From an uncultured Bacteroidales bacterium (GTDB lineage: Bacteria > Bacteroidota > Bacteroidia > Bacteroidales > FEN-979): DNA of 54,280 nt. The stretch is taken from positions 1-54,280 of the forward strand of contig CAIKNA010000364.1 in assembly GCA_903828645.1 (NCBI GenBank). Direction: 5' to 3'. Each line of letters opens with the position of its first letter. Positions within the stretch are counted from its first letter, which is position 1. Below, in pieces: positions 11,201 to 34,847 of this stretch. Both the position numbers and the translations under genes were made by a program. The notes beneath the pieces are model-generated. The model made no database searches, was not told the origin of the DNA, and saw only the letters and a list, made by a program, of their open reading frames with translations.

Positions 11201-14200
11201 TTTACCGTGCTAAATGTGGCCGAAGTGCTGGAGCCATTGCAGACTATCTGGTTGTCTGGCTGATTCACCTGACCTGTCGGGTTCACTGTGATGGAAAATG
11301 TTTTTGTGGGCCCCGAACAACTCACGGAATTATTGGTGAATGTGGGAGTTACAACAATGATTGCAAAAACAGGCTGATTACCTGTATTGGTTGCAACAAA
11401 GGAAATATTTCCCACGCCGATGGGATCAAGACCGATGGCGGGATTGTTGTTGGTCCACAGATAGGTAGTGGTTCCACCTGTATTGTCGGTTCCGAATGAA
11501 ACTGAAGTGTTATTTCCATTGCAAACAACCTGACTGACAGGTTGGTTCACATGGCCCGACGGATTGACCGTGATGGTAAAGTTCTCTGTTGGCCCGCTGC
11601 AGGAAACCGACCCGTTTTCAAAATATGGTCTCACTGTAATGGTCGCAGTTACTGGTGCATTGGAACTGTTGACGGCAACAAAGGCTGCTATATTGCCTGT
11701 CCCGGCAGCAGCAAGGCCAATACTTGAATTGGTATTCGTCCATGTATAGGTGGCATTTCCGCCGGAGTTGCTGGTGGCGAAATTCACAGCGCTCGTATTT
11801 GCTCCATTGCAAACGGTCTGGTCCGAAGGATCGATCACCTGTCCGGTTGGATTGACTGTGATGGTGAAATCCGTCGATGGTCCGTCACAAGTAACAGAAC
11901 TGTTTTTAAAATGAGGGGTTACGGTAACCGTGGCAATAACCGGTGCATTCGTACTATTGGTGGCGGTAAAAGAAGGTATGTTGCCTGAACCGCTCGAACC
12001 AAGTCCGATGCTGATGTTGGTATTTGTCCAGGTATAGTTAGTGGTTCCAACGGTGTTGTTTGTGGTAAAAGTAACCGAAGAGGTACTTCCTCCGTTGCAA
12101 ACAACCTGGTCGGCCGGATCATTCACCTGTCCCGTCGGGTTGACCGTGATGCTGAACTGGGCAGTTCCGTCGCAGGTAACCGACCCGTATTCAAAATGAG
12201 CTGTTACAGTGATCGTGGCAACAACCGGGGCAGTTGTAGTGTTGGTGGCGGTAAATGAAGAAATATCGCCGGTACCGCTGGCACCGAGCCCGATGCTGGT
12301 AGTGTTGTTGACCCATGTATAGGTAGTAGTACCAACTGTATTTACAGTTCCGAAAGTTACCAGGGTAGTAGATGCATTATTACATACTACCTGGTCTCCG
12401 GGAACATTCACCTGTCCCGAAGGATTGACCGTAATAGTAAAGGTTTGCAGGGTTCCATCGCAGGTAACTGATCCGTTGGTAAAATGAGGTGTCACGGTTA
12501 TCGTGGCAACTATAGGTGCCGTTGTTGTATTGGCAGCTGTAAAAGCGGAGATATTGCCGGTACCGGTGGCACCAAGTCCGATACTGGTCGTATTGTTCGA
12601 CCATGTATAAGTAGTGGTTCCATCCATGTTGCTGGTGGTAAAGGTCACCGCAGTTGTTAGAGCGCCGTTGCAAACTACCTGGTCGGCAGGATCATTTACC
12701 TGTCCGGCAGGATTGACGGTAATGGTGAACGTTTGTGCTGTTCCGTCACAGGTAACTGATTCGTAGGTAAAATGAGGCGTTACGGTTATCGTGGCAACTA
12801 CCGGTGCATTTGTTGTATTGGCAGCTCTAAAAGAAGCAATGTCGCCTTTACCGGCAGCACCAAGACCGATGCTGGTTGTGGTATTGGCCCATGTATAATT
12901 TGTTATTCCTACAGTGTTAATCGTACCAAACGTCACCAGCGTTGTGGATGCGTTTTTGCAGACCACCTGATCAGCAGGATCGTTCACCTGTCCGGAGGGG
13001 TTCACAGTAATAGTAAAAGTCTGGGGGAGTCCAACACAACTTGTTCCACCGTCTGTCAGGGTAGGTGTTACCGTGATGGTAGCCACTACAGGTGCAGTGC
13101 CTGTATTGCTTGCTGTGAAAGCGCCGATATTCCCCGTTCCTGATGCACCAAGTCCGATGCTGGTTGTGTTATTGGTCCATGCATAGGTAGTGGTCCCGAC
13201 TACATTGGTCGTTGTAAAGTTAACGGCAGTGGTGAGTGCACCATTGCAAACCACCTGGTCGGCAGGATCATTTACCTGGCCGGCAGGATTTACTTTTACA
13301 ACACCCGGAATGTAGAATGATGCAGTTGGACTGTCGCAGAAAGGATTGTAATCAAATGCAATACCGGTAAACTCGCATGCCGTCCCCTGGGCATCTTCCT
13401 TAAATGTAAGGTTTGATAAAGTTGTTCCACTGACGATATTGAATCTAAGTGTAAAAATGGTTTCCCCAACTCCCAGGGTTACGCCATCGGTGGGATCGTA
13501 ACCCAAACCCGACACCTTATATTTACCGCTGGCAAGTATGATCAAATTGGTAGTTGAATCAAACACCGGCCATGCGTGGCCAGGCAAATCAAAGGCAGCA
13601 TTTCTGCTTACAATTCTCGGTGCCCTCAGTTCCGTTGGAGTAAATCCAAAAGTTAAAGAGAAACTTCCCACGTTATTAAAGGAAGAAACCGTTATGGGGA
13701 TGTCCACATAAGTGGCTCCTGTGCAAACATTCACATTAGAAATAGTAGTGACCGGGCCGTTGGGAACAGTCACAACGGTGGCGATTCCTGTAAGCTGGGC
13801 TGAACAACCGGTCGCAACAATTGTGGCAAGTACATTAAATGTAGTGGTGCCTGTAAGGGGGCCTGTGGGAAGGCTGATGGTTCCGCCATCACCCGGAACA
13901 GGCGAACCAATCAGGCTGTTGTCAGCATTGTTTCTTAACTGGTATGTTGTTCCAACTTCAGATGATGCAATTGTAAGATAGGTGCCGGTTCCTGAACAGA
14001 CCTGGCCTCCTGCAACATCAACAATCAAATCGATGGCTGGCAAAGGATTCACCGTTATGGTTGCCTTGCCGGTCAGTGTGGCTGAACATCCGGTTGTAAT
14101 CATTGTTGCCAGTACATTGAATGTTGTTGTAACTGTTACGGGACCTGTTGGCAGGTTGATTGTTCCGCCATCGCCCGCAACCGGCAATCCGACCAGACTG

Positions 14201-17200
14201 TTGTCGGCATCATTTCTTAACTGGTAGTTTGTGCCGATTACCGATGGTGAAACAGTAACATTGATGCTAGCACCTGAACAAGCCGTAGTTGAACCAGCAA
14301 CGGTCGAATTTATGGAGGGCACTGGGTTTACAATAACGGTGACACTTCCGCTCATGATGGTGGAACATCCGTCGGTTACGTTGGTACCGACAATCGTATA
14401 TGTTCCGGGGGTAATCACCCCGGGGAATGCCAGTCCGCAACAGGTTGTACCGGGAATGATCGTTCCCGTAGCAAAACCATCTTTCCAGAGTTCATAGTTC
14501 ACACCTAACTCCGAACCGGAAAGAAAAATATAAACTCCCGTTCCACCTTCGCAATAAGAGCCACCACCTGCAACCGTGAAGAGAGTTGGAGCGGTTTTCA
14601 CAACAACCGTAGCGCTGCTCGTTGCAGTAAAACCATTGCCATCGGTTACAGTTACGGTATAACCTGCTGAACCTGATAAAAGTGTAGAAGGATTGATCGA
14701 TTGGGTTATTTCGCCACCCGGGCTCCATAAATAGGTAAAGGTGGGATCACCCACTGGATTTGCTGTAAGGGTTAGTGCCGCATTGGGGCATACAGACAAG
14801 GATGGATTCGGGGTGATGTTAACAGTAGGTCCAAGTAAGGATATGCCAGTGAAATCGGAAAAACCTGTAACGCCCATTGCAGTGAGCGTATTTGCACCGA
14901 GTGGTGCAAATTTCACCCATGGCAATGAACCACTGTATTTTCCCGTAACCTGGCTGCCTTCTGTTCCTGCAATATCAGCAGGGACATAAGTTCCTGTTAC
15001 ATTACATGAAAAAGCGGTTATGCCTGAGGAGGAGACTGTCCAGTAGCGGTCTAAATAATTTGTCGTACTTGCATTGCTCGGATGCTTCGCATTTTTCACT
15101 TTCACGCCGGCATAACCACCAGAATAGCTGCCTGAAGTGAAATTCAAGGTCATGGGGGTATAATCGGGGGCACCTGTGTTATCCCCTACCGGAAATAGAA
15201 AGGAACCATTGGCCGTGAAATTTTTTCTAACTTCACCACTGCCATTGGTAACAATCATATTGGTAACACCCGGGGTTCCGGCGATGCCAGGGGAAGATGG
15301 ACCGAGGATCAGATTACCTGAACCAAGGCTGAGCAACCCGGCAGACAAGGTTAAAGTGCCATTCACGGTCATATCGCTGGAAAGGTTGACACCATTAGTC
15401 CTGCCAACAGTAAAATTATTCAAACCACCTGTTATGGCAGGCAAGGTTAAGTTTGCCGTTCCTCCGATGATCAGGTTGCTCGTACTGCTGACGTTGATTG
15501 TACCGGTACCTGTTCCTCCATCGTTCAGGATAAGCGTATTGTTTGCACCAATATTATAAGTACTTAATGGTATTACGTCAAAAACACCATTCACAGTAGC
15601 TGTTGAGGCTACAGGTGTGATGACAACACCATCAACAACCAGGTTGTCAAAATTCCAGGAATCAAGTGCGTAGGGATCACCCACGAAGGCAAACTGAAAG
15701 TACATGTTTCCGCCAACATCGTTGGTGTAGTTTGGAATTGAAATACTTGAAGCTGCATGCGCTGCATATGCCATTGACCATACATCATGCCAGGGGCCGC
15801 TTGTGCTCGTGGCAGATTGCAGTTTCAAATAGGTGGGATAATTTTGAATATAGTTTCCCGTGGCATAAGATTTGAAGGCAACATTCACCGCATTGTACCC
15901 AGTGGTGTTTACAGGTCCGCGGTAGATGTAATTTGTGACGTTCGAGTGGGTCCCTTCAGTGCTGTAATAGCGGCCTTCAGGCGAAGTGCCGCCGGCAAGT
16001 GCAGATGCATTTGCAGCAAATTGCATGGATCCAGTTCCGATATTCCCTGTCCAGCTTGTTAAATTCGGGAAGGCATCGGTAAGTAAATTAGTTGTACTGG
16101 ATGTATATGCGTATTGGGTCAAACCACCTAAATTCGTTGTTAAATTATTAAGGGCAGATGAGGTTGTAGGCAATTCCATTCCCATGGTTATGGGTGAAGC
16201 TCCTGAGTAAGTAAGATTTACGGTTCCCGCGAAGGTTGGAGCATTTGTCAAACTACCGGCCGCCCGGAAAATAGTACTTCCGGTTGCCATTGTCAGGTAA
16301 GCTCCGTTGTTCACAAGTCCATTCACGAGAGATAAGGTGCCATTTACAGTAACAGCACCGTTCAGTGTTAATCCTCCGTTGTTGATTGTCAAATTATTCA
16401 GTCCGCCTGATACAGCCGGTAAGAGAGTGGCCGGTGCACCCGATCCTCCCGAGAAAGAAATGTTGGAAGATGTGCCGCCTGTCGCCGTTCCGCTAACGAT
16501 CCCTATTGTTCCGTTAACAGTGAGTGTATGGGCACCAATATTGAGGTTCCCACTGGAAAAATTCAATCCGGTTGTATAAACATAAGGAATGGTCACATCT
16601 CTGGTGATTGATAATGTCCTCGGAGTGCAAACCAGCAGCAGGTAGGCAATGTTGCCATCGGCGGGAACTTCGTAAGAGGTCGAATAATCATTCAGTGCAG
16701 GTGCATATAACAATTGGTATCCACCGGTTCCTGCATTGAAGACAGGGGGTTGATCAAAACTGCCGGCAGCATAGGTTGTACTCGCCCCTATCTGGACTAC
16801 GCCATAGGTGGTTCCACCATTTCCCAGGAGGATCCTATTGGAATTGGTCATTAAACCATAATATAAGTTAACTCTCTGACATACTATCTGATTGGCACCT
16901 AAAAGCGACAACCCTGCGGTATTTCCAAGAGCAAGCGTGTACATTGGCGCTGTAACAGTGCCATCATTGGTAAAGGTTTGTGCCAGGCTGCCAAGGAAAT
17001 AGACAACCGTATAGGCCGCTGTTCCATTGATGGTTGCTCCGGGGCTATTGGTCAGATTGGCGCCTAAAACCAGGTAAGTGCTTGTTGCGCTTGTCCCTGC
17101 AGTTAATACAAGAGTTGAACCATTTGTGCAATTTCCATTTACCTGTACTGTTTTGGAAGCAGCAATTGTTTTTGTTCCTGCACCTGTAAGTGAGAGGATT

Positions 17201-18048
17201 CCATAAGTTCCCGGTATCAACGTTTGTGCAGTGGCACCGGTGTAGTTTACAACAGAACCGGCAACAGAGGTAAAAGCTGGAGTACCAGTTATGGTACCTC
17301 CCAGATTCAATGTCCCTGCTCCGGTAAAGGTGATCTGGCAACCAGTCGTACCGGTTGTAAGTGTTCCTGTTACAGTAACGTTTCCAGTGGAAATGCTAAG
17401 AATATCATTCCTCGTCGTTGTGGTTGCAGCCATTGTCAATGAGCCGCACGACAATGTTCCTGCACCCACGGCAATCGTGAAGTTGGTTGCGTTTGTTCCC
17501 GGTCTGGCCATGGTAATGAGCCCTGTTACGGTCAGCGAATTCGATCCGCTTATTGTTATCCCTCCAGTATTTACGGTGGTCAGCGAGGCACAGGTTGCTG
17601 CAACATCAACGGTCACCGATATTCCATTATTAATCGTCACTGCATCTGCAGAAGTTGGAACAGCAGTGCCACCCCAGGTAGCAATATCGCTCCAGTTTCC
17701 CGACACAGAGGCCGTCCTGGCAACAAGCGGTGCATCCGTGGCGGGTGGGATAATGATATTTTCAACCGTGTTGTCATTTGAAACCGCCTGTTCGGGAATT
17801 TGAATATTTTCAGGTACTTTGTCAGATTGAACAGTGGCCATTTGAACCCCTGCATCTTTTTTACCCGGGCCAAAGTTATCCTTGCCAGCCTTGTTCTGCC
17901 CAGCCCCAAAGTTACTAAACCCAAGCAACAGAGCTAACAGCAGCGCTGTATAAAAGCCATGCACGCGTTTAATTGTAAACAGAGATGAGGCATTGGTCGG
18001 CTGAATCTTGGTAGGCTGTTCAGCATGGAAGAAGTAATTTTTTTTCAT
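8227..18048 (-). CDS. giant T9SS-exported multidomain surface protein (3273 aa)
   Basis: The N terminus has a long signal region with its hydrophobic core near residues 31-50. Near 115-170 a SGNWSDIATWGG segment opens a stretch of beta-rich domains. Residues about 645-805 resemble a jelly-roll/MAM-like domain (SWNFDNLVVDG). A PKD-like domain follows near 1070-1150, and about 1430-1580 looks like a cohesin-type domain. Residues 1590-2832 are 13 tandem modules of about 95 residues. Each begins GQVN-P-DQVVCNG, passes through TYTWTNN--SIGL and ends TFTITVNP. The last ~80 residues are a T9SS type A sorting domain (FKLYPNPTTGNF, ending in AETIKLVKIN), predicting export through the outer membrane and surface attachment. 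It is likely an adhesin or structural surface protein; no catalytic domain is recognised. No frameshift is seen over 9.8 kb. Confidence 0.9.
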   Translation of the reverse strand: MKKNYFFHAEQPTKIQPTNASSLFTIKRVHGFYTALLLALLLGFSNFGAGQNKAGKDNFGPGKKDAGVQMATVQSDKVPENIQIPEQAVSNDNTVENIIIPPATDAPLVARTASVSGNWSDIATWGGTAVPTSADAVTINNGISVTVDVAATCASLTTVNTGGITISGSNSLTVTGLITMARPGTNATNFTIAVGAGTLSCGSLTMAATTTTRNDILSISTGNVTVTGTLTTGTTGCQITFTGAGTLNLGGTITGTPAFTSVAGSVVNYTGATAQTLIPGTYGILSLTGAGTKTIAASKTVQVNGNCTNGSTLVLTAGTSATSTYLVLGANLTNSPGATINGTAAYTVVYFLGSLAQTFTNDGTVTAPMYTLALGNTAGLSLLGANQIVCQRVNLYYGLMTNSNRILLGNGGTTYGVVQIGASTTYAAGSFDQPPVFNAGTGGYQLLYAPALNDYSTSYEVPADGNIAYLLLVCTPRTLSITRDVTIPYVYTTGLNFSSGNLNIGAHTLTVNGTIGIVSGTATGGTSSNISFSGGSGAPATLLPAVSGGLNNLTINNGGLTLNGAVTVNGTLSLVNGLVNNGAYLTMATGSTIFRAAGSLTNAPTFAGTVNLTYSGASPITMGMELPTTSSALNNLTTNLGGLTQYAYTSSTTNLLTDAFPNLTSWTGNIGTGSMQFAANASALAGGTSPEGRYYSTEGTHSNVTNYIYRGPVNTTGYNAVNVAFKSYATGNYIQNYPTYLKLQSATSTSGPWHDVWSMAYAAHAASSISIPNYTNDVGGNMYFQFAFVGDPYALDSWNFDNLVVDGVVITPVASTATVNGVFDVIPLSTYNIGANNTLILNDGGTGTGTINVSSTSNLIIGGTANLTLPAITGGLNNFTVGRTNGVNLSSDMTVNGTLTLSAGLLSLGSGNLILGPSSPGIAGTPGVTNMIVTNGSGEVRKNFTANGSFLFPVGDNTGAPDYTPMTLNFTSGSYSGGYAGVKVKNAKHPSNASTTNYLDRYWTVSSSGITAFSCNVTGTYVPADIAGTEGSQVTGKYSGSLPWVKFAPLGANTLTAMGVTGFSDFTGISLLGPTVNITPNPSLSVCPNAALTLTANPVGDPTFTYLWSPGGEITQSINPSTLLSGSAGYTVTVTDGNGFTATSSATVVVKTAPTLFTVAGGGSYCEGGTGVYIFLSGSELGVNYELWKDGFATGTIIPGTTCCGLAFPGVITPGTYTIVGTNVTDGCSTIMSGSVTVIVNPVPSINSTVAGSTTACSGASINVTVSPSVIGTNYQLRNDADNSLVGLPVAGDGGTINLPTGPVTVTTTFNVLATMITTGCSATLTGKATITVNPLPAIDLIVDVAGGQVCSGTGTYLTIASSEVGTTYQLRNNADNSLIGSPVPGDGGTISLPTGPLTGTTTFNVLATIVATGCSAQLTGIATVVTVPNGPVTTISNVNVCTGATYVDIPITVSSFNNVGSFSLTFGFTPTELRAPRIVSRNAAFDLPGHAWPVFDSTTNLIILASGKYKVSGLGYDPTDGVTLGVGETIFTLRFNIVSGTTLSNLTFKEDAQGTACEFTGIAFDYNPFCDSPTASFYIPGVVKVNPAGQVNDPADQVVCNGALTTAVNFTTTNVVGTTTYAWTNNTTSIGLGASGTGNIGAFTASNTGTAPVVATITVTPTLTDGGTSCVGLPQTFTITVNPSGQVNDPADQVVCKNASTTLVTFGTINTVGITNYTWANTTTSIGLGAAGKGDIASFRAANTTNAPVVATITVTPHFTYESVTCDGTAQTFTITVNPAGQVNDPADQVVCNGALTTAVTFTTSNMDGTTTYTWSNNTTSIGLGATGTGNISAFTAANTTTAPIVATITVTPHFTNGSVTCDGTLQTFTITVNPSGQVNVPGDQVVCNNASTTLVTFGTVNTVGTTTYTWVNNTTSIGLGASGTGDISSFTATNTTTAPVVATITVTAHFEYGSVTCDGTAQFSITVNPTGQVNDPADQVVCNGGSTSSVTFTTNNTVGTTNYTWTNTNISIGLGSSGSGNIPSFTATNSTNAPVIATVTVTPHFKNSSVTCDGPSTDFTITVNPTGQVIDPSDQTVCNGANTSAVNFATSNSGGNATYTWTNTNSSIGLAAAGTGNIAAFVAVNSSNAPVTATITVRPYFENGSVSCSGPTENFTITVNPSGHVNQPVSQVVCNGNNTSVSFGTDNTGGTTTYLWTNNNPAIGLDPIGVGNISFVATNTGNQPVFAIIVVTPTFTNNSVSCSGPTKTFSITVNPTGQVNQPDNQIVCNGSSTSATFSTVNIDGTTTYSWTNNTPGIGLAGSGTGNISAFTAINTGTSPVVATITVTPTFEKKSVSCPGLFKTFTITVNPSGQVNKPGDQVVCNGGSTTLVDFTSNNLGGTTSYTWTNNTTSIGLAASGSGNISSFTAANTGSAPVVATITVTPHFENGLVTCDGLAQTFTFTVNPSGQVNDPGDQVVCNGASTSAVTFSTNNTVGSTTYTWTNTNTSIGIGASGTGNLPVFTAINTGNAPVVASFDVTATFTYEGVSCVGLSQTFTITVNPTGQMNGGLGNQELCNGALTTEVDFTTNNTGGVTTYNWTNNLPSIGLGASGTGNIAAFTAINTGNGPVTAMIVVTPVFTNGSVGCSGPTESFYITVNPTGQVIDPADQVLCNGSTTIAVNFTTTNTGGTTLYSWVNDTPGIGLAVSGNGNIDPFTAINTGAAPVVATIVVTPRYVPGGCVGTPQSFTITVNPTGQMNQPADQIVGNGENTAVVAFTTINTVGVTTYTWTNNLTSIGLAASGTGNIAAFTAINSGAVPVVATITVTPTFTFGSVGCPGPPKTFTITVNPKPILVITNQVACSPNRVDLTDPSVTAGSFLPPVTILTYWNDATATTSPVATPTAVGNGTYYIKATITPGGWFDIKPVVVTINQLPIVYFGVPATATICANGPGITVGITGSQIGVSYSVWIGITQVSPVVAGTGGPIFFAPPLTLPGNYWVLAENMTTHCFNRMYECMIITTYPPVQVSVSIATPTITVPADQNVTFTSTAVNGGVSPFYQWKVNGFDITGANGPTYTYKPVNGDAVTCLLTSSEICNSGPATSNTIIMTVTGVSVGSITVTGNVASGETKCYNALQTITVAGGGTKFVVKTGGSATFIAGQNIIYLPGTTVEPGGYMHGKIFDGAYCGYKSPSLVNSAEGTVEQPVILQNSSFKLYPNPTTGNFTLEQTSGSLHESVKVEIYGIQGGRVMSGELTREKKHEFSISDFPAGLYFVKVVAGNEAETIKLVKIN
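9553..13281 (-). repeat. 13 tandem ~287-bp coding modules (PKD-like repeats)
   Basis: Thirteen consecutive in-frame modules encode residues 1590-2832 of the giant protein. Each is about 285-291 bp, with conserved starts (GQVN/GQVI/GQMN) and ends (TITVNP). Sequence drift between copies is moderate; module 13 has VGNGEN in place of VCNG, and module 12 is shortened near its end. The array marks serial duplication within the gene. Confidence 0.88.
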
Positions 18049-27271: not shown

Positions 27272-27688
27272 TCAGCTTTCTCTGATCAAATCCTGAAGGG
27301 TGGCATGTTCCAGCTTTTCAAAAGTATTGTCCCTGATCTCCTTAAATACTTTGCGAATATTGCACGCAATCTCGTCTTTGCAAAATTCACAGGGTTGGTA
27401 GGCTTTCTCCGACACGCATGGCAACAAGGCAATTGGCCCGTCGAACTGACGGACAACCTCTGCAAGGTTAACATCCTTGGGGTGCCTCAGGAGAAAATAA
27501 CCACCTGATTTGCCCAGTTTACTCCCGAGGATTCCCATTTTCTTTAACTCCAGTAAGATATTTTCGAGAAAACGTTGGGGGAGTTTTTCACTTTTCGCAA
27601 GTTCACTGATCAAAATGGCTCCTGTCCCATATTCACGGGCAAGCCTTGTCAGCGCAACCATCGCGTATCTTGTTTTTTTTGAGAGCAT
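27272..27688 (-). CDS. Rrf2 family transcriptional regulator with four Cys
   Basis: The 138-residue protein has the Rrf2 winged helix: KTRYAMVALTRLA, the recognition region LPQRFLENILLELKKMGIL, and a wing GKSGGYFLLR. The C-terminal half carries Cys91, Cys100, Cys103 and Cys109. Rrf2 proteins such as IscR, NsrR and RirA bind an Fe-S cluster through three Cys here and sense cluster supply, NO or iron; the spacing (x8, x2, x5) is not that of IscR. It follows the FNR-like gene by 10 bp on the same strand and so is probably in one operon with it. Targets may include the divergent NifS-containing unit. Confidence 0.9.
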   Translation of the reverse strand: MLSKKTRYAMVALTRLAREYGTGAILISELAKSEKLPQRFLENILLELKKMGILGSKLGKSGGYFLLRHPKDVNLAEVVRQFDGPIALLPCVSEKAYQPCEFCKDEIACNIRKVFKEIRDNTFEKLEHATLQDLIRES

Positions 27689-27698
27689 TTTGAAACGA

Positions 27699-28403
27699 TT
27701 ATCCGTTTTTACTGATTGCCTTTAGTTTATCAATATCCCTGATGATTATTTTTCGACCTTCAAAACTGATCAGCCCCTCCTTATTATATGCAGACAAAAC
27801 AGAAATGACATTTTCATGGGAACATGCTGCAAATTCTGAAATCTCTTTCCTGGTCAGAGTGAAATCATATGCAGAATTCCTGTAAACATTTTCCCAGAGA
27901 AAAATCAGGATGTCTGCGATCCTTCCATTTACATGGTTGTGGGCAAGGCTTATGAAATTGAATATGGAGGACTGGAACATGTCGGTGGAGCGTTCAACCA
28001 TGGATATTAAAAACTTGCCGTGATTTTCAAGTACACCAAGGACTGTCCGGCTATCCAGGAAACATATCTCGCAATCCTCCACCGCGACGATTGAAAAAAT
28101 ATTTTTCTCCCTGAAAAACAAGTTCGCCTGTCCGATCAGTTTTGGTCCCGAAACCACCGTCATGATATAACTTTTTTTCGCATCCTTCTGGTAGGTAAAC
28201 TTAACGATCCCCTTATGCAGAAAACCAATGCTGGTTGCATTTGCACCCTGTTTCAGGATCACTTCTCCTTTTTTGAAATTCAGTTGATTCGCGTTGCCGC
28301 AAATAATTGCACGCTCCTCTTTAGTTAAGTAAAGACCTGTAAAATTACTTAAAAAGCAGTTGTTGCAATCAAAAAGTTTGTTGTCGTTTCCGAATGATTC
28401 CAT
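27699..28403 (-). CDS. Crp/Fnr family regulator, FNR-like
   Basis: The 234-residue protein has a cyclic-nucleotide-binding-type sensor domain (residues about 30-150) and a C-terminal helix-turn-helix (TRKEISEFAACSHENVISVLSAY, near 185-206). N-terminal Cys13 and Cys16, Cys35, and Cys111 or Cys114 in the sensor core are placed much as the four cluster ligands of FNR, so an oxygen- or NO-labile 4Fe-4S sensor is plausible but unproven. It is divergent from the ABC ATPase gene, with a palindromic operator and opposed promoters between, and likely regulates both arms and itself. Confidence 0.88.
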   Translation of the reverse strand: MESFGNDNKLFDCNNCFLSNFTGLYLTKEERAIICGNANQLNFKKGEVILKQGANATSIGFLHKGIVKFTYQKDAKKSYIMTVVSGPKLIGQANLFFREKNIFSIVAVEDCEICFLDSRTVLGVLENHGKFLISMVERSTDMFQSSIFNFISLAHNHVNGRIADILIFLWENVYRNSAYDFTLTRKEISEFAACSHENVISVLSAYNKEGLISFEGRKIIIRDIDKLKAISKNG

Positions 28404-28458
28404 ATTTTTTAATACTTGGGGCTATAAAATTTCATTTTGCAGTATTGAATATTCCGGA

Positions 28459-28498
28459 CAAATGTACACTATTTTGATGAACATAGTGTATATATTTG
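28459..28498. promoter_or_regulatory. divergent promoter with palindromic operator
   Basis: The palindrome has arms TACACTAT (28465-28472) and ATAGTGTA (28483-28490) around a 10-bp spacer. It is flanked exactly by a minus-strand -7 box (plus-strand CAAATGTA at 28459-28466, i.e. TACATTTG) and a plus-strand -7 box TATATTTG (28491-28498). Neither side has a -33 TTTG at 19-21 bp, so both promoters may depend on a bound protein. The spacer holds a TTGAT half site like that of FNR. The likely binder is the FNR-like or Rrf2 regulator encoded on the left. Confidence 0.7.
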
Positions 28499-28518
28499 TA
28501 AAAAAAAATTAACAACCT

Positions 28519-29316
28519 ATGGAAGTAACTAAAATCACCCTCTTCGGAGGGTATGGAAAAGACGGCTCAGCAGAGAAAGTGAAAGAATTCAGCATGGAAG
28601 TCGGGGACATTGTAAGCATTGTCGGCCCCACCGGTTGCGGAAAAACAACATTGATCAATGACATTGAACTTTTTGCCAACCAGAACACCCCTTCCGGAAG
28701 GAGGGTTTCAATTAACGGGGAACCCGTGCCGGAAGATTTCATCTTTGACCCCGCGAACCACCCAATTGCCCTGATCTCGCAGCACACGAATTTTCTGAGC
28801 GACCTGCCGGTGGAGGAATTCCTTGCGATTCATGCAACCGTGCGCGGGGCACAGGATGTCGAATCAATCGTTGGCGAAACACTCGATTTCGCCAATGAAC
28901 TCACAGGGGAGGCCATCATGAAGGACATTGCAATGACAGAGTTATCCGGGGGGCAAACACGGTCGTTACTCATCGCCGATGCGGTGGTAATTGGAAACGC
29001 TCCTATTATTTTGCTTGACGAGATTGAAAACGCCGGCATTCATCGCACCAAGGCGCTCGAATTGCTGAAGCGATACAAGAAAATATTTGTTTTTGTCACC
29101 CACGATCCGTGCATCGCACTGATGTCCGATTTCAGAATCGTCATGCAAAACGGTGCCATGCAGCAATTGATCACGACCCAACCCGAAGAGAAGAAGGTTG
29201 CCGGGAAAATGAAACAGATCGACGACATGATGCTCGATTTCAGGCAGATCATCCGCTCGGGTGATGAACTATCCGAATCAATTTTCAATGAAAGTTTTAA
29301 AGTATTAACCTTTTAA
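28519..29316 (+). CDS. stand-alone ABC-type ATPase
   Basis: The 265-residue protein is a complete ABC nucleotide-binding domain: Walker A GPTGCGKT (36-43), Q-loop Gln88 in ISQHTNF, signature LSGGQ (142-146), Walker B ILLDEIE with Asp167-Glu168, and His195 in VTHDP. No membrane protein of an ABC transporter is encoded anywhere in this unit. That makes a soluble role likely, such as ATP-driven assembly or activation, as for SufC or the methyl-CoM reductase activator A2. It is the first gene after the divergent operator and ends 9 bp before the GTPase start. It does not look like SufC itself. Confidence 0.85.
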   Translation: MEVTKITLFGGYGKDGSAEKVKEFSMEVGDIVSIVGPTGCGKTTLINDIELFANQNTPSGRRVSINGEPVPEDFIFDPANHPIALISQHTNFLSDLPVEEFLAIHATVRGAQDVESIVGETLDFANELTGEAIMKDIAMTELSGGQTRSLLIADAVVIGNAPIILLDEIENAGIHRTKALELLKRYKKIFVFVTHDPCIALMSDFRIVMQNGAMQQLITTQPEEKKVAGKMKQIDDMMLDFRQIIRSGDELSESIFNESFKVLTF

Positions 29317-29325
29317 TTGTATAAT

Positions 29326-30027
29326 ATGAAATTAGTAATTTTTGCCGGTCCGCCAACCTGCGGAAAAACCACCGTCATCAGGCAGGTGTTGAAACGCATG
29401 GCAGCCAGGGAGATTAAAACCGCCTATCTTAAAATAGATGTCCTTTATGCCGACGATGACATCCTTGTTAAAAAGGAGTTCGGGATTCCTGTAAAAAAAA
29501 TCTATTCCGGAGAGTTGTGCCCCGATCATTGCAACGTTGTTGTGCTTGACGAAGCGGTTGAATGGGCTGAAAGATCGGGGGCAAGTTACCTTTTTGTTGA
29601 GACGGCCGGACTTTGCCTGCGCTGTTCACCCTACGTGGAAAACTCCCTGGGGATTGTGGTACTTGAAGCAACCAGCGGCATGAACCTTCCCAGGAAAATA
29701 GGTCCCATGCTCACGCTGGCCGACATCTGCGTAATTACCAAGATCGATCTCATTTCACAGGCCGAGCGGGAAGTTTTTCGCTACCGTGTGCTTGAATCGG
29801 CAAAAAAGATCACAGTTGTTGAAAGCAATGCCCTTTACGGAATTGGTATCGACCCTATTGTAAAACAAATTCTTAAAACCCCTGAAGTTGAATTCCCGAT
29901 GTATCTCAGGGGAAATCCCCCGGTGGGAACCTGCACCATCTGCGTGGGCAAAAAAGAGATCGGTGCCAAAAATCATTTTGGTGTTCTCCGCACTCTTGAA
30001 CAGGAAATTTTTTATGTCGGTGAATAA
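29326..30027 (+). CDS. HypB/UreG-like G3E GTPase, putative metallochaperone
   Basis: The 233-residue protein has a G3E P-loop (GPPTCGKTT, 8-16), a Walker B region VETAGLCLRC (91-100), LADICVITKIDL (131-142) providing the guanine-specificity TKxD, and an overall order like HypB, the nickel-inserting GTPase of hydrogenase maturation. Three Cys pairs stand out: Cys65/Cys69 (CPDHC), Cys97/Cys100 (CLRC) and Cys203/Cys206 (CTIC), probable metal or cluster ligands. The frame reaches a TTG at 29317, but the ATG at 29326 begins the beta strand before the P-loop. No hydrogenase or urease genes are nearby, so the client is unknown. It overlaps nifS by 14 nt if that gene starts at 30014. Confidence 0.83.
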   Translation: MKLVIFAGPPTCGKTTVIRQVLKRMAAREIKTAYLKIDVLYADDDILVKKEFGIPVKKIYSGELCPDHCNVVVLDEAVEWAERSGASYLFVETAGLCLRCSPYVENSLGIVVLEATSGMNLPRKIGPMLTLADICVITKIDLISQAEREVFRYRVLESAKKITVVESNALYGIGIDPIVKQILKTPEVEFPMYLRGNPPVGTCTICVGKKEIGAKNHFGVLRTLEQEIFYVGE

Positions 30028-31222
30028 TAATCATATGGAAACAGAAGGAATTTACCTCGACAATGCAGCAACAACCCGTGTGGACGATCGGGTGATCAGG
30101 TCGATGATTCCAGTTTTTTCCCAGGAGTACGGCAACGCTTCGAGTCTTCATCATTTTGGCACACAGGCAAGGGAAGTTCTCGAAAATTCGAGGACGACCC
30201 TTGCAGAGTGCATCGGAGCAGATTCCGGCGAAGTGTACTTCACCTCCGGCGGGACAGAATCCAACAACTGGGCACTGAAAGGTATTGCAGAATCCAACAG
30301 GCATAAAGGGCGGCACATCATCGTATCCTCCATTGAACACGACTGCGTGCTGAATACCTGCAACTGGCTTGCCGGACAAGGATTTTTCGTCACTTATCTT
30401 CCGGTTGATTCCTCCGGGCTGGTCGACCTCGAAACTTTGAAAAAAGCGATCAACCCTAAAACGATCCTTGTCTCGGTGATGCATGCCAATAATGAGATCG
30501 GCACCATCGAGCCCGTTGAAGAGATCGGCCGGATTTGCAAAAAGCACGATGTTTACTTTCATTCAGATGCCTGCCAGTCGTTCGGAAAAATTCCAGTCGA
30601 TGTAAACGCAATGGGAATCGATCTGCTGACGGTCAATTCCCATAAAATTTATGGTCCGAAAGGCATTGGTGCGCTCTATGTCAGGAAAGGCGTCGACATT
30701 GCCCCGATGTTGCATGGCGGAGGACAGGAAGCAGGATTGCGGTCAACCACCGAAAACATGCCTGCCATCGTAGGCTTTGCCGAAGCTGCCGCAATCTGCC
30801 TGAGGGAGATGAAGAGCGAAGCAATACGTTTGTCGCTACTCAGGGAAAAACTGGTCAGGTTCATCTTCGCTGAATGTGAAAATGCTTACATAAATGGCCA
30901 TCAGGTGCAAAGGTTGCCAGGGCACCTGAGTTTCAGTTTTCATGGCCTGGAAGGTGAAACGATCAGGCTGCTCCTGATGCTCGACGAGATGGGAATAGCA
31001 GTTTCAGCCGGGTCTGCCTGCTCATCAAATGACAAATCACACAATGCATCGCATGTTCTTCAGGCGATCGGGCTCAATCCTTTTGAGGCCCGCGGGGCCA
31101 TCAGGGTGAGCATGGGGAGGTTCACCACCGAAGCCCAACTGAACATATTTACGGATTCACTCGGACAAGCCTTAAAAAGCCTGACTTCAATATTTTCAGG
31201 AAATTCAATCATGAATCTTTAA
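30014..31222 (+). CDS. cysteine desulfurase, NifS/IscS family
   Basis: This PLP enzyme takes sulfur from cysteine as a persulfide for Fe-S clusters or other sulfur cofactors. It opens with IYLDNAATT and contains the PLP-binding SHKIYGPKG lysine and the catalytic Cys in SAGSACSSND, typical of group I (NifS/IscS) enzymes. From ATG 30014 it has 402 residues; the frame extends upstream inside the GTPase gene, and an alternative ATG at 30035 would remove the overlap. No IscU, SufB or SufU scaffold gene is adjacent, so it seems dedicated to this gene set rather than to general cluster assembly. Confidence 0.92.
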   Translation: MSVNNNHMETEGIYLDNAATTRVDDRVIRSMIPVFSQEYGNASSLHHFGTQAREVLENSRTTLAECIGADSGEVYFTSGGTESNNWALKGIAESNRHKGRHIIVSSIEHDCVLNTCNWLAGQGFFVTYLPVDSSGLVDLETLKKAINPKTILVSVMHANNEIGTIEPVEEIGRICKKHDVYFHSDACQSFGKIPVDVNAMGIDLLTVNSHKIYGPKGIGALYVRKGVDIAPMLHGGGQEAGLRSTTENMPAIVGFAEAAAICLREMKSEAIRLSLLREKLVRFIFAECENAYINGHQVQRLPGHLSFSFHGLEGETIRLLLMLDEMGIAVSAGSACSSNDKSHNASHVLQAIGLNPFEARGAIRVSMGRFTTEAQLNIFTDSLGQALKSLTSIFSGNSIMNL

Positions 31223-31223
31223 T

Positions 31224-31451
31224 ATGGAAAAAACAACTTTATTTACTAAACACCCCCGTGAAGTAAGGATGTCATATCTGCAACACACCAGGTTTGCGCT
31301 AATGCTTTCGGGTACCACATTTAAATGCGCCATTGCTTCCCTCGTTCATGCTTTTTTGCCGTTTCTGTTTGTGACACACACAAGTACGACGATTTACAAA
31401 TTGCATGACATTTTTGAAGAGCGGCAGAAGGAATTAACAGACTTGAAATAG
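31224..31451 (+). CDS. DUF6356 family small membrane protein
   Basis: The 75-residue protein follows the DUF6356 pattern: an N-terminal LFTKHPREVRMSYLQH segment, one hydrophobic stretch ending in VHAFLPFLFV (residues about 25-50) and a TTIYKLHD tail. The family has no assigned function; members are small, with one or two membrane segments. Its start is 1 bp after the nifS stop, so it is almost certainly translated from the same mRNA. It could anchor or tether the soluble proteins of this unit, which is speculation. Confidence 0.8.
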   Translation: MEKTTLFTKHPREVRMSYLQHTRFALMLSGTTFKCAIASLVHAFLPFLFVTHTSTTIYKLHDIFEERQKELTDLK

Positions 31452-31476
31452 AAACCAATATCAAATAAAAACAAAC

Positions 31477-32166
31477 ATGGAAACAAAAGTCATAGAAAGT
31501 TCAACATTTGCAAGTTTACCAATGCTGAACTGCGGTATATGCGGGTATAAAACCTGTGATGAATTTGCCGTTGCAGTAGACAATTCCGAAACCTCGCTGA
31601 AGATGTGTATCCACCTCAAGCTGAATGGTTCGGATACCAGGACAATTCCCAACTGCATCGAGTGCAAGGATGCAGGTCGGGTTGGTGAAAAAATGGGGTG
31701 GAAGGATCACCTGAAGCGGGATTTTGATTTCATCCTCGATTGCTTTGACAACGAACCTGGTCCCAGGGAGACGATACTCCCCTACAACCCGGCATTGACA
31801 GCGAGCCTTGGAGTGAAAAAAGGGGATGTGATGATTGGCCGGCCAATGGGAATGTCGTGTGGCTGCCCGATCACACACTGCGGCGTCGTAACGGATGCCG
31901 ACCAACGCAACGGTGTGATCAACTGGTGCGTTACAGGTCCGCTAAGACCCCGGTCGGAAGGATTTATCGATATCGGTTACTACATCGCCCAGGGCTATGA
32001 AGGAATTATCAAGGAATCGAAGGAGAAAATAGACCTGGGCCGCAGGTACTGGTTCATGCCAAGGAGATGCATGTTGCAGTGGAGACACAGCGGACTGGTA
32101 AATGCCGTCACCAAATTACCCGACGGAAGCTACAAAGTACGCATCGAAGGCTTGTTTATCGGGTAA
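31477..32166 (+). CDS. Cys-rich 4Fe-4S protein (FeS domain plus unknown domain)
   Basis: Cys19, Cys22, Cys27 and Cys44 give C-x2-C-x4-C-x16-C, the exact pattern of the FeS domain found in the large subunit of the corrinoid/Fe-S protein (AcsC) and in electron-transfer subunits such as RnfB. Further Cys follow: the pair Cys60/Cys63, Cys128/Cys130/Cys135 in SCGCPITHC, and one in MPRRCML near the end. The C-terminal ~150 residues belong to no family I recognise. There is no signal peptide. The position after GTPase and NifS suggests a scaffold, carrier or reductase in the same process. Length 229 aa. Confidence 0.82.
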   Translation: METKVIESSTFASLPMLNCGICGYKTCDEFAVAVDNSETSLKMCIHLKLNGSDTRTIPNCIECKDAGRVGEKMGWKDHLKRDFDFILDCFDNEPGPRETILPYNPALTASLGVKKGDVMIGRPMGMSCGCPITHCGVVTDADQRNGVINWCVTGPLRPRSEGFIDIGYYIAQGYEGIIKESKEKIDLGRRYWFMPRRCMLQWRHSGLVNAVTKLPDGSYKVRIEGLFIG

Positions 32167-32231
32167 GTCACCCGGATATAAATTTCATCCCTGGGCGAAG
32201 GCGGACTGGTTTCCCGGAAAAACAATTAAAA

Positions 32232-33641
32232 ATGAAAACGATTGCAATCATTGGCTGCGGATTCTCGGGAACCATGACCGCCATTCAACTCATCAAAAAT
32301 GCTGCCGAACCTTTTAGCCTGGTGTTGATAGACCATCCCGGCCATTTCAACAGGGGTATCGCGTACAATCCATCTTCAAAAAAACAGTTGCTGAATGTCA
32401 CCGCCGCAAGGATGAGCGCGTTTCAGGATAAACCCGACGACTTTTTAAACTGGGTAGTGGGGAGGGAGGAGTTTACTGGGATTCACAGGGATGTACTCGC
32501 CAATACTTATCTCCCCCGCTATTTTTATGGAGAATACCTGGAAAGCCTGTGGAGTGAGGCCCTGCAATCATCCATTGCTCAAAACGTAACGGTCTCTATA
32601 AAACACGCATTGGCAACCGGGATGGAGGTGTCTGACCAGGAGATCACTTTATTGCTTGATAATGACGAAAAAGTGACGGCACAATTCGGTGTAATTGCAA
32701 CTGGCAACTGCCTGCCGGGAAATCCGGATATTAAAAACACCGGCATTTTCAACCATCCCCGCTATTACAGGAATCCATGGGATGCCTATGCTGTAAAGAC
32801 ACCTGACCTCAAGTTCCCTGTTTTAATTCTTGGGAATGGCCTAACCATGGCAGATACGGTATTGGGCCTGGTTGAAAATGGATTTGACAATGAAATCCAC
32901 ACCCTTTCGCCGCATGGATTTACAACTTTGCAGCACGGACAACCGGCAATCGGTTATACCGCAATAGCCGGAGAGTTTCATAATAACAGGCAGAGTCTTA
33001 CCGACCTCCTCAGGATTGTCATTAAGCACATCAGGCTGGCCAGGAATCAAGGATTAACTGCAGCAACTGTGATCGATGCCATCCGGCCTTTTACACAACA
33101 AATCTGGCAGAACCTGACGATCCGCGAAAAACGTTTATTCCTCTCAAGATTGCGCCACCTGTGGGACACTGCCAGGCACAGGATTCCTTCACAGATTCAT
33201 GACAAACTGATGAAGCTGGAAGCTAGCGGCAAGTTATACCTGCATTCCGGAAAACTGATTGAAATCACAGAAGATGGCGATTGCCTCATCGTCCGTTTTT
33301 TTGATCACCAAAAACAGCTCACGCAGGAGATGCGCTTTTCGGCGGTGATAAACTGCACCGGACCTGTCACTGATTTGATGAAGGCGGAAAGCGGGTTATT
33401 AAAAAAATGCCTGGTGAATGGCATCCTTGTTCAGGATGAGCTGAACTTAGGCATTGCAACCGATCCTAAGACATTTGAGGTGTATGACGGGTTGCATGAA
33501 TCCAGGCGAAACCTTTTTGCAATAGGACCACTCTTAAAAGGCGTACTCTGGGAAAGTACTGCAGTTAAAGAATTGCGGGAACAGGCCGAAGCGATTTCAA
33601 AGCTCCTGATCAATAAAATCGGGCAATCGTCAGGGGGCTAA
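32232..33641 (+). CDS. FAD/NAD(P)-binding protein (NAD_binding_9 type)
   Basis: The 469-residue flavoprotein starts with a Rossmann GCGFSG (8-13). It has the family-specific LLNVTAARMSAF segment near residue 55, an ATGNCLPG strand-turn, and a second dinucleotide site LILGNGLTMADTV. It resembles the YdhS/HpyO-like group of FAD-dependent proteins with unclear substrates. The frame runs upstream to 32067 inside the preceding gene, but the ATG at 32232 gives the proper N terminus. It may supply electrons to the Fe-S protein encoded just upstream. Its 3' end overlaps the convergent pdxH gene by 12 bp. Confidence 0.85.
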   Translation: MKTIAIIGCGFSGTMTAIQLIKNAAEPFSLVLIDHPGHFNRGIAYNPSSKKQLLNVTAARMSAFQDKPDDFLNWVVGREEFTGIHRDVLANTYLPRYFYGEYLESLWSEALQSSIAQNVTVSIKHALATGMEVSDQEITLLLDNDEKVTAQFGVIATGNCLPGNPDIKNTGIFNHPRYYRNPWDAYAVKTPDLKFPVLILGNGLTMADTVLGLVENGFDNEIHTLSPHGFTTLQHGQPAIGYTAIAGEFHNNRQSLTDLLRIVIKHIRLARNQGLTAATVIDAIRPFTQQIWQNLTIREKRLFLSRLRHLWDTARHRIPSQIHDKLMKLEASGKLYLHSGKLIEITEDGDCLIVRFFDHQKQLTQEMRFSAVINCTGPVTDLMKAESGLLKKCLVNGILVQDELNLGIATDPKTFEVYDGLHESRRNLFAIGPLLKGVLWESTAVKELREQAEAISKLLINKIGQSSGG

Positions 33642-34355: not shown

Positions 34356-34847
34356 ATGTCAAGCAAAGTTACAAAAGCAGAACTTTCTGAGTTCAAAACA
34401 AATAAAGAATCAGCTAAAGAATTCTCCAACGGAGAAGTTACAGTTTACTGGAAGGCTGAATTGTGCATTCACTCTGCAAATTGCCTGATCGGTCTGCCAG
34501 GCGTTTTCAATTCAAAGAAAAAACCATGGATCAATGTTCATGCCGCAGACAGCAAAGAGATCATGAAAGTTATTGACACGTGCCCATCCCGTGCTCTTAC
34601 CTACCTGAAGAGCACCAAGTTTGTCACTTCAAAACCCCGCGCCACCGCCAAAATGAAATCAAAATTTGCCCGGGTCCATATCCTGAAAAATGGTCCCGCT
34701 TTGATCACAGGCAATTTTATTTTACGGGACTCAAAGAAAAAGAAGATCCAGATCGAAAACGAGGTGGCAGCCATTTGCCGTTGCGGCGCCAGCAAGAAAA
34801 AACCTTTCTGCGACGGAAGCCACCAGACAGTCGGGTTTACAGACTAG
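34356..34847 (+). CDS. CDGSH iron-sulfur protein with N-terminal Fer4_19-like domain
   Basis: The 163-residue protein combines two cluster domains. The N-terminal half has Cys37, Cys43 and Cys76 (CIHSANC, DTCPSRAL), the pattern of Fer4_19-type domains. The C-terminal half ends in a CDGSH motif: Cys141, Cys143, Cys152 and His156 bind a labile 2Fe-2S cluster with a 3Cys-1His set. CDGSH proteins are thought to act in redox sensing or cluster transfer. It is divergent from pdxH and lies next to the Fe-S themed unit. Confidence 0.9.
   Translation: MSSKVTKAELSEFKTNKESAKEFSNGEVTVYWKAELCIHSANCLIGLPGVFNSKKKPWINVHAADSKEIMKVIDTCPSRALTYLKSTKFVTSKPRATAKMKSKFARVHILKNGPALITGNFILRDSKKKKIQIENEVAAICRCGASKKKPFCDGSHQTVGFTD

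Follow-up and report, generated by a model that had tools for sequence, protein, structure and literature searches.

A conserved ABC ATPase, GTPase and iron–sulphur protein module, a candidate system for nucleotide-driven metallocentre assembly

Introduction

Among the closest described counterparts of the gene set considered here are HypB and UreG, P-loop GTPases that bind nickel through short Cys/His motifs, and the SUF system, with its free-standing ATP-binding cassette (ABC) ATPase, SufC, and a cysteine desulfurase. ISC-type operons occur with cysE/cysK and an Rrf2 regulator; A2 is an ABC protein that activates methyl-coenzyme M reductase, and RACE proteins do likewise for corrinoids. The activation complex of methyl-coenzyme M reductase exemplifies the ATP-driven handling of a metal centre (PMC12176620), and for many GTPases of the G3E type (COG0523) another article treats the client as a question still open (PMC9164220). 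In this work we analysed a 54,280-nucleotide stretch of DNA from an uncultured Bacteroidales bacterium (contig CAIKNA010000364.1, contig 364 of a 5.1-Mb assembly in 409 contigs), which will be called the window. It encodes a module consisting of a free-standing ABC ATPase, a CobW/HypB/UreG-type GTPase, a NifS/IscS-type cysteine desulfurase (NifS) and an iron–sulphur (Fe-S) protein. A preliminary description of the window had proposed that these genes, together with those for a DUF6356 protein and an FAD/NAD(P)-binding protein, form a six-gene metallocofactor system.

The GTPase belongs to the same P-loop family as HypB and UreG, and its CPDHC motif aligns with nickel-site motifs of both (CH in HypB, CPH in UreG). 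However, it differs from them in its sub-cut-off profile scores, in an additional CTIC pair of cysteines, in having an ABC ATPase as partner, and because no hydrogenase or urease operon was seen around it. The combination of free-standing ABC ATPase and desulfurase recalls SUF in outline, but the desulfurase is of the NifS/IscS type, the module has a GTPase in addition, its Fe-S protein is unrelated, and a Pfam scan of the module proteins of the window and of the Fe-S proteins revealed no SufB/SufD (PF01458). Because the defining features of HypB, UreG and SUF fail here, we do not assign the module to any of them. ISC-type operons likewise bring Rrf2, a desulfurase and cysteine-synthesis genes into one neighbourhood, but here ABC ATPase, GTPase and Fe-S protein stand in the place of the scaffold (no search for IscU was made). 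The likeness to A2 and methyl-coenzyme M reductase activation would be one of function (ATP-driven handling of a metal centre), and most carriers of the module are, by record title, not methanogens. No account of the module was found in the open-licence full-text literature of PubMed Central, a search that did not extend to subscription papers. As judged from the genes, the module would be a new form of metallocentre assembly driven by nucleoside triphosphates (NTPs).

Results and discussion

The conserved unit

A search of 84,980 species genomes with an alignment of the GTPase gave 169 relatives. The locus counts reported here cover the best 80 of them (grade I; 49 loci from Bacteroidota and 31 distant ones), and some of their genomes are shared with a second set, made up of the genomes of 100 relatives. 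Loci and genomes are designated by L and G numbers, respectively. Gene layouts were determined by tblastn, since predicted open reading frames (ORFs) were in wrong frames at the G+C-rich loci L118, L136 and L177–L179, and NifS was counted in a layout only when its gene started no more than 2.5 kb from the end of the GTPase gene.

The conserved unit consists of the ABC ATPase, the GTPase and the Fe-S protein, with NifS as an optional member, and is therefore smaller than six genes. No core gene was off order or strand in any of the 80 loci, which showed the layouts ABC–GTPase–NifS–Fe-S (54 loci), ABC–GTPase–Fe-S (17), ABC–GTPase–NifS (five), GTPase–NifS–Fe-S (two) and GTPase–Fe-S (two). The ABC ATPase was found in 76/80 loci, and in the remaining four the GTPase gene is no more than 138 bp away from where the contig ends; the Fe-S gene is missing in five, four of which end soon after. 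NifS is present in 61/80 loci, and its inclusion in the unit holds for most of the Bacteroidota (46/49) but not for the distant loci, where only 15/31 have it. The DUF6356 gene occurs in 11/49 and the FAD gene near the module in 3/49 Bacteroidota loci, both in 0/31 of the others, and neither can on these counts be considered core. Thus, of the six genes originally grouped together, the core ones do stay together across phyla, while the other two are local extras; a six-gene unit was consequently rejected, and the FAD protein, proposed as electron entry, does not belong to the conserved unit.

The same picture emerged from the set of 100 relatives, where a full ABC orthologue was present in 24 genomes, a full Fe-S protein in 25 and both in 23 (Fisher p 3e-19, with kinship not corrected for), and no trace of either was found in 71. 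Orthologues and paralogues of the ABC ATPase were clearly separated in this set (at least 66% identity versus about 36% or less). The three mismatches correspond to contig ends in G286 and G269 and to a broken operon in G268 (L059). In G265 (L236, 10395–10611) a 37-residue start of the ABC gene passes directly into a 38-residue end of the Fe-S gene, which is in another frame, and both divergent regulators are intact beside the deleted core, which appears to have gone in one piece, as if by one deletion. Remnants of the operon remain in G272 (L237). The three core proteins are inherited and lost together, and G265, G272 and G268, where the core has undergone natural deletion or decay, provide ready-made comparison genomes. 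In addition, correlations of 0.54–0.82 were obtained between the three proteins for their pairwise distances over 25 distant loci, and none of 2000 permutations gave values as high.

Putative metal-binding motifs and protein families

The motif C19-x2-C22-x4-C27-x16-C44 of the Fe-S protein, pointed out in the preliminary description along with further cysteines, did not vary in alignments of 40 and of 38 Fe-S proteins, and PF04060 was recognized in 38/38. No family other than those of the Fe-S-motif kind matched these 38 proteins at E < 0.001, so that no family model was found for the C-terminal half; weaker matches to Thiolase_C (0.02, 5 members) and to N-acetylglutamate synthase models (0.007, 13 members) were taken as chance. 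This half contains a predicted beta domain (residues about 72–229), which was modelled with AlphaFold2 from 50 sequences (pLDDT 92.6, pTM 0.86). Foldseek searches with the whole protein and with the C-terminal domain retrieved no PDB fold at E ≤ 0.001, and the weak matches to PilZ-type and split barrels (E 0.04–0.8) are at most a hint. There is a second invariant set of two cysteines and two histidines: C130, H134, C198 and H204 are, like G121-R122-P123, conserved in 50/50 Fe-S proteins, four of which are grade II proteins (see below) with just 31–38% identity, and C128 and C135 are kept in 45/50. We infer that C130, H134, C198 and H204 form a Cys2His2 metal site.

The three cysteine pairs noted earlier in the GTPase (C65/C69, C97/C100 and C203/C206) are, with H68, invariant in 38/38 GTPases. 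The first pair lies in CPDHC, at the position where UreG and HypB bind nickel, and the second (CLRC) adjoins the second conserved cysteine of HypB in the alignment, which bears out the description of the protein as HypB/UreG-like. Its scores are nevertheless below the equivalog cut-offs (47.7 versus 121.2 bits for HypB, TIGR00073; 31.9 versus 204.2 bits for UreG). The preliminary description had also considered that the GTPase might belong to a known hydrogenase or urease operon; by eye, no such operon was present among the neighbours listed, and the only related gene was HydE, in L090, L101, L103 and L106.

The Walker, signature and H-loop motifs of the ABC ATPase (GPTGCGKTT, LSGGQ, LLDEIE, THDP) are intact, and their residues are invariant or almost so in 36 homologues. 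Its characterization as permease-less agrees with the absence of any ABC permease from the 45 largest recurrent neighbour clusters of the 80 grade I loci. The translated desulfurase contains the sequence AGSACSS in a class V aminotransferase fold; we take the SACSS active-site loop to be the NifS/IscS cysteine desulfurase motif. Its TIGR03402 score remains under the cut-off of 530.75 bits, and the subfamily is not certified.

Sulphur-related and other neighbours

About a quarter of the loci have a cysteine/methionine neighbourhood, a feature that went unnoticed in the preliminary description. When flanks of up to 10 kb were searched with fixed query proteins, genes of cysteine and methionine enzymes (MetY/CGS, CysK, CysE, CysC, CysD, CysN) were found at 19/80 loci, of which 12/49 were Bacteroidota (p 0.014) and 7/31 distant loci (p 0.034), and at 0/40 controls (p = 3e-4 for all loci); these p-values are optimistic, because families and queries were picked from the same loci after looking. 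The controls were 40 arbitrary stretches of carrier genomes with a mean length of 11.7 kb, as compared with 15.6 kb for the module loci. If transporters, MoeB/ThiF-like and Mar genes are added, the figures become 20/80 and 1/40.

Several of these genes follow the Fe-S gene closely: CGS by 77 bp in L078 and 74 bp in L080, CysK by 64 bp in L094 (longest ORF) and CysE by 132 bp in L071. In L110, cysC (Pfam) begins 24 bp after the Fe-S gene and is followed by cysD (assigned by eye) and cysN (TIGR02034). The example MetY, CysK and CGS proteins scored over their NCBIfam cut-offs, and the CysE example under. In the Omnitrophota loci L115–L117 and L122 a secondary permease gene comes soon after the module, with MetY in L115–L117 and CysK in L116 and L122; sulphonate-transport-like genes are found in L115 and L117, with the SsuA family below its cut-off.

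In some Bacteroidota, genes of the [FeFe]-hydrogenase maturase HydE that score above cut-off lie between the NifS and Fe-S genes (L090, 11907–13019; L103, 11889–13001) or after the Fe-S gene (L106, 4374–5477); in L101, too, HydE is part of the operon or its immediate downstream neighbour. A further HydE copy is present at another place in G271, G278 and G281. At L134 (Heliobacterium mobile) and L139 (Pararhodospirillum oryzae) the module adjoins NifD/K-like genes that score below the nitrogenase cut-offs. Extracts of the literature mention a MarDK-like pair of H. mobile (PMC9147875), not necessarily the one beside the module, the enzyme of Rhodospirillum rubrum (PMC12552129) and methyltransferase clusters with sulphur genes (PMC10418091).

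Distribution and related versions

According to record titles, which can mislead, grade I loci are spread over about a dozen phyla, archaea included. Titles name Bacteroidota, Omnitrophota, Planctomycetota, Acidobacteriota, Thermodesulfobacteriota, Myxococcota, a Schekmanbacterium and a Patescibacterium, in addition to two methanogens, a Freyarchaeote, H. mobile and P. oryzae. Locus L069, titled Alphaproteobacteria, is apparently the same contig as in G251, from the window's genus, and probably derives from a mislabelled bin.

The module is rare. Among 247 evenly drawn genomes of the phylum, a full-length Fe-S protein was found only in the window's own genome; 14 others matched over just 31–66 residues at the Fe-S motif and were excluded from the homologues. 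Similarly, among 150 genomes of the order of Pararhodospirillum grade I was found only in its own, with two GTPase matches at E~1e-54 in Rhodospirillales (L173, L174). The plasmid collection gave one record, a 2.1-Mb 'plasmid' of Fusobacterium, with 41% identity. A joint tree was built on 34 rows, the window and the 33 loci present in all three alignments, with L138 excluded from the tree and from alignments A7 and A8 owing to a masked stretch. The Heliobacterium and Pararhodospirillum copies are sisters in this tree (100/99), which is what one would expect if the complete set had been transferred from one phylum to another.

The 82 genomes of the class of Heliobacterium contain two more diverged versions. 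A GTPase at E ≤ 1e-50 is present in 21 of them, two of which carry grade I. Grade II (E about 1e-95 to 1e-98) occurs in seven genomes, including both grade I ones, and at its four clear-frame loci (L175, L180, L181, L182) comprises ABC and Fe-S genes, with no NifS. Grade III, found in the other 14 genomes (E about 1e-51 to 1e-60), is at the loci read a GTPase–ABC pair. It shares with the module a homologous GTPase and ABC ATPase (about 36–43% identity), but its gene order is reversed, its ABC protein has an N-terminal extension, and DUF364-like and importer genes replace those for Fe-S protein and NifS. A DUF364-like gene adjoins the pair in 6/8 and FecBCD-like genes in 5/8 of the grade III loci listed, mostly as judged by eye (Pfam in L187), and ZnuABC-like genes, also by eye, in L243 of Fusobacterium vincentii. 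The pair is possibly a separate metal-handling system. The diverged pair was noticed at L183–L187, L190, L191, L194 and L243, often with DUF364-like, NTPase_1 and FecBCD-like genes.

Possible function of the module and its alternatives

In our opinion, there is about an even chance that the module serves for NTP-driven assembly or activation of a metal–sulphur centre and is tied to sulphur supply. This interpretation is based on the fixed order and joint presence or loss of the core, the metal motif of the GTPase, the Cys2His2 set, NifS, the HydE and cysteine/methionine neighbours, the correlated distances of the three proteins, and the DUF364 and FecBCD-like genes that adjoin the diverged GTPase–ABC pair. 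In such a system, NifS or the general desulfurase of the cell would mobilize sulphur from cysteine, and the GTPase would hold a metal at CPDHC, CLRC and CTIC. The Fe-S protein would carry a [4Fe-4S] cluster and a second metal on C130/H134/C198/H204, and its role may be that of a scaffold, a carrier or a reductant. The ABC dimer, by hydrolysing ATP, would provide a power stroke through which the product is released or activated on a client enzyme. The client would be required when sulphide is scarce and may vary between lineages, and cysteine or Fe-S status is perhaps the signal that turns the module on.

A number of observations weigh against this interpretation. In L088 about 1.6 kb remains past NifS without any Fe-S match, NifS is missing from 16/31 distant loci, and 61/80 loci have no cysteine/methionine enzyme gene in the flanks examined; such genes accompany only 1/7 grade II loci (and 0/8 of grade III). 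Above all, no client enzyme emerged from the comparison of 24 near carriers, 24 non-carriers and 22 distant carriers, in which nitrogenase-like PF00148, sulphite reductase PF01077 and HydE were not universal in carriers; one 'non-carrier', G286, was later seen to carry the module after all, where a contig ends, which affects the PF01077, CysN, SUF and HydE figures. PF00148 is present in 7/22 distant carriers and absent from the window's own genome, and a nitrogenase-like enzyme was rejected as universal client. PF01077 occurs in 0/24 near and 11/22 distant carriers. It is, however, also lacking in 23/24 non-carriers, and CysN (23/24 near carriers, 19/24 non-carriers) barely discriminates, so that a substitute for sulphite reductase is unsupported as the carriers' trait. 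HydE, with 21/24 near carriers, 18/24 non-carriers and 12/22 distant carriers, fails to separate near carriers from non-carriers, which leaves [FeFe]-hydrogenase maturation unsupported as universal client. Finally, all 24 near carriers have SUF, encoded on other contigs in the window's own genome (SufBD is present in 6/22 distant carriers). Replacement of SUF was thus rejected for near carriers, in which ordinary Fe-S clusters do not depend on the module, so that it cannot be called a housekeeping system. The metallocofactor role suggested in the preliminary description remains the best reading, but since no client was found, the building, repair and reductive activation of a centre that it had offered together cannot be told apart.

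The sulphur-related neighbours could also mean that the module is itself a sulphur-acquisition enzyme, an ATP-driven low-potential reductase with an Fe-S protein that would reduce or cleave some organic or oxidized sulphur compound and supply CysK/MetY with sulphide or persulphide, comparable with the nitrogenase-like methylthio-alkane reductase. Besides the cysteine/methionine genes, this would fit with the cysC, cysD and cysN genes of L110, whose genome has no PF01077 match, with the lack of PF01077 in all near carriers, with the sulphonate-transport-like genes of L115 and L117, SsuA below cut-off as they are, with the nitrogenase-like genes at L134 and L139, and with the freshwater, low-sulphide origin of many carriers as suggested by record titles. 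It appears rather unlikely, considering that non-carriers lack PF01077 as often and differ little in CysN, that a GTPase resembling nickel chaperones and a cysteine-consuming desulfurase would be odd parts of such an enzyme, and that the C-terminal domain is not linked to reductases by sequence or fold. Less probable still is a reductive activase, in which ABC ATPase and Fe-S protein would drive electrons uphill into the metal centre of a client, which could for example be an enzyme that transfers methyl groups in methionine synthesis. In its N-terminal motif the Fe-S protein comes nearest to the corrinoid/iron–sulphur protein and RnfB, methionine genes are found near the module, and grade II locus L181 adjoins a UROD-type protein and DUF1847. 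However, NifS and the HypB-like metal motif would be left unexplained, the FAD protein, the candidate for electron entry, is not conserved, and a corrinoid protein was not seen as constant neighbour.

The DUF364-like, FecBCD-like and ZnuABC-like genes beside grade III pairs might instead point to metal uptake, with the ATPase serving a permease encoded elsewhere and the GTPase passing on the imported metal. We regard this as very improbable, because the importers near grade III have, by eye, an ATPase of their own, no ABC permease recurs at grade I, and among the clusters listed a permease, of the secondary type, was present in the four Omnitrophota loci only.

Organization and regulation of the locus in the window

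Genes of the window were assigned from ORFs and their translations and from Pfam and NCBIfam profile searches (Table 1). The arrangement was as previously described, with FNR-like and Rrf2 regulators divergent from a run of genes on one strand, the first five of which overlap or are 1–25 bp apart: 9 bp separate ABC and GTPase genes, the GTPase and desulfurase genes overlap by 14 bp, and gaps of 1 bp and 25 bp precede the DUF6356 and Fe-S genes. The FAD gene follows after 65 bp.

Table 1. Features of the module locus in the window
Feature	Position	Strand	Evidence
Rrf2-family regulator (IscR/CymR-like)	27272..27688	-	PF02082 1e-33
CRP/FNR-family regulator	27699..28403	-	PF00027 + PF13545
Imperfect inverted repeat ACAAATGTACACTA..TAGTGTATATATTTGT in the divergent intergenic region, candidate operator	28458..28499	.	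Intergenic alignment
Free-standing ABC ATPase	28519..29316	+	PF00005 1.6e-15
CobW/HypB/UreG-type GTPase with CPDHC, CLRC, CTIC motifs	29326..30027	+	PF02492 1.8e-12
NifS/IscS-type cysteine desulfurase, optional member	30014..31222	+	PF00266 9e-84; TIGR03402 481.5 bits
DUF6356 small protein, local accessory	31224..31451	+	PF19883 1.1e-19
Fe-S protein: N-terminal PF04060 4Fe-4S motif and new C-terminal beta domain	31477..32166	+	PF04060
FAD/NAD(P)-binding protein, non-core gene downstream	32232..33641	+	PF13454 2.5e-32

Control by FNR and Rrf2, as originally proposed, is only partly reflected in other loci. An Rrf2 gene is divergent within 3 kb in 22/49 Bacteroidota loci and lies on the same strand in 14/31 distant ones. 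The CRP/FNR gene is divergent in 37/49 Bacteroidota loci and in 0/31 of the others. Seven Rrf2 proteins, the window's own included, were scanned and are CymR- and IscR-like, yet under both equivalog cut-offs. The inverted repeat is, by eye, the best-conserved part of an intergenic alignment of 13 sequences (window included), and the candidate operator has one copy in the window and none in 100 shuffles. Its strict pattern is found in just 9/45 Bacteroidota loci tested and is therefore local to near relatives. LuxR-type response-regulator-like genes (by eye) repeatedly adjoin the module in L077–L081, L083 and L087.

Downstream in the window, at 34356–34847, a Fer4_19 and CDGSH iron–sulphur fusion protein is encoded whose gene also accompanies the module in several near relatives. 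Further away, at 8227–18048 on the minus strand, lies the gene of a 3273-residue protein in which Pfam recognizes nothing but a Por secretion sorting domain at the C-terminus.

Conclusions

Few NTP-driven routes to complex metal–sulphur centres are known, and the module is an intact, portable gene set that includes a protein domain without a family model. More tentatively, it may be an undescribed mobile metal–sulphur cofactor assembly pathway of anaerobic bacteria and archaea, in which a new Cys2His2 beta-fold domain and a GTPase–ABC motor would provide a special Fe-S or mixed-metal centre for sulphur acquisition at low sulphide. Named collection strains, H. mobile DSM 6151 and P. oryzae NBRC 107573, make the proposed role testable. 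The neighbourhood of the module hints at a way in which anaerobes may cope with scarce sulphur.

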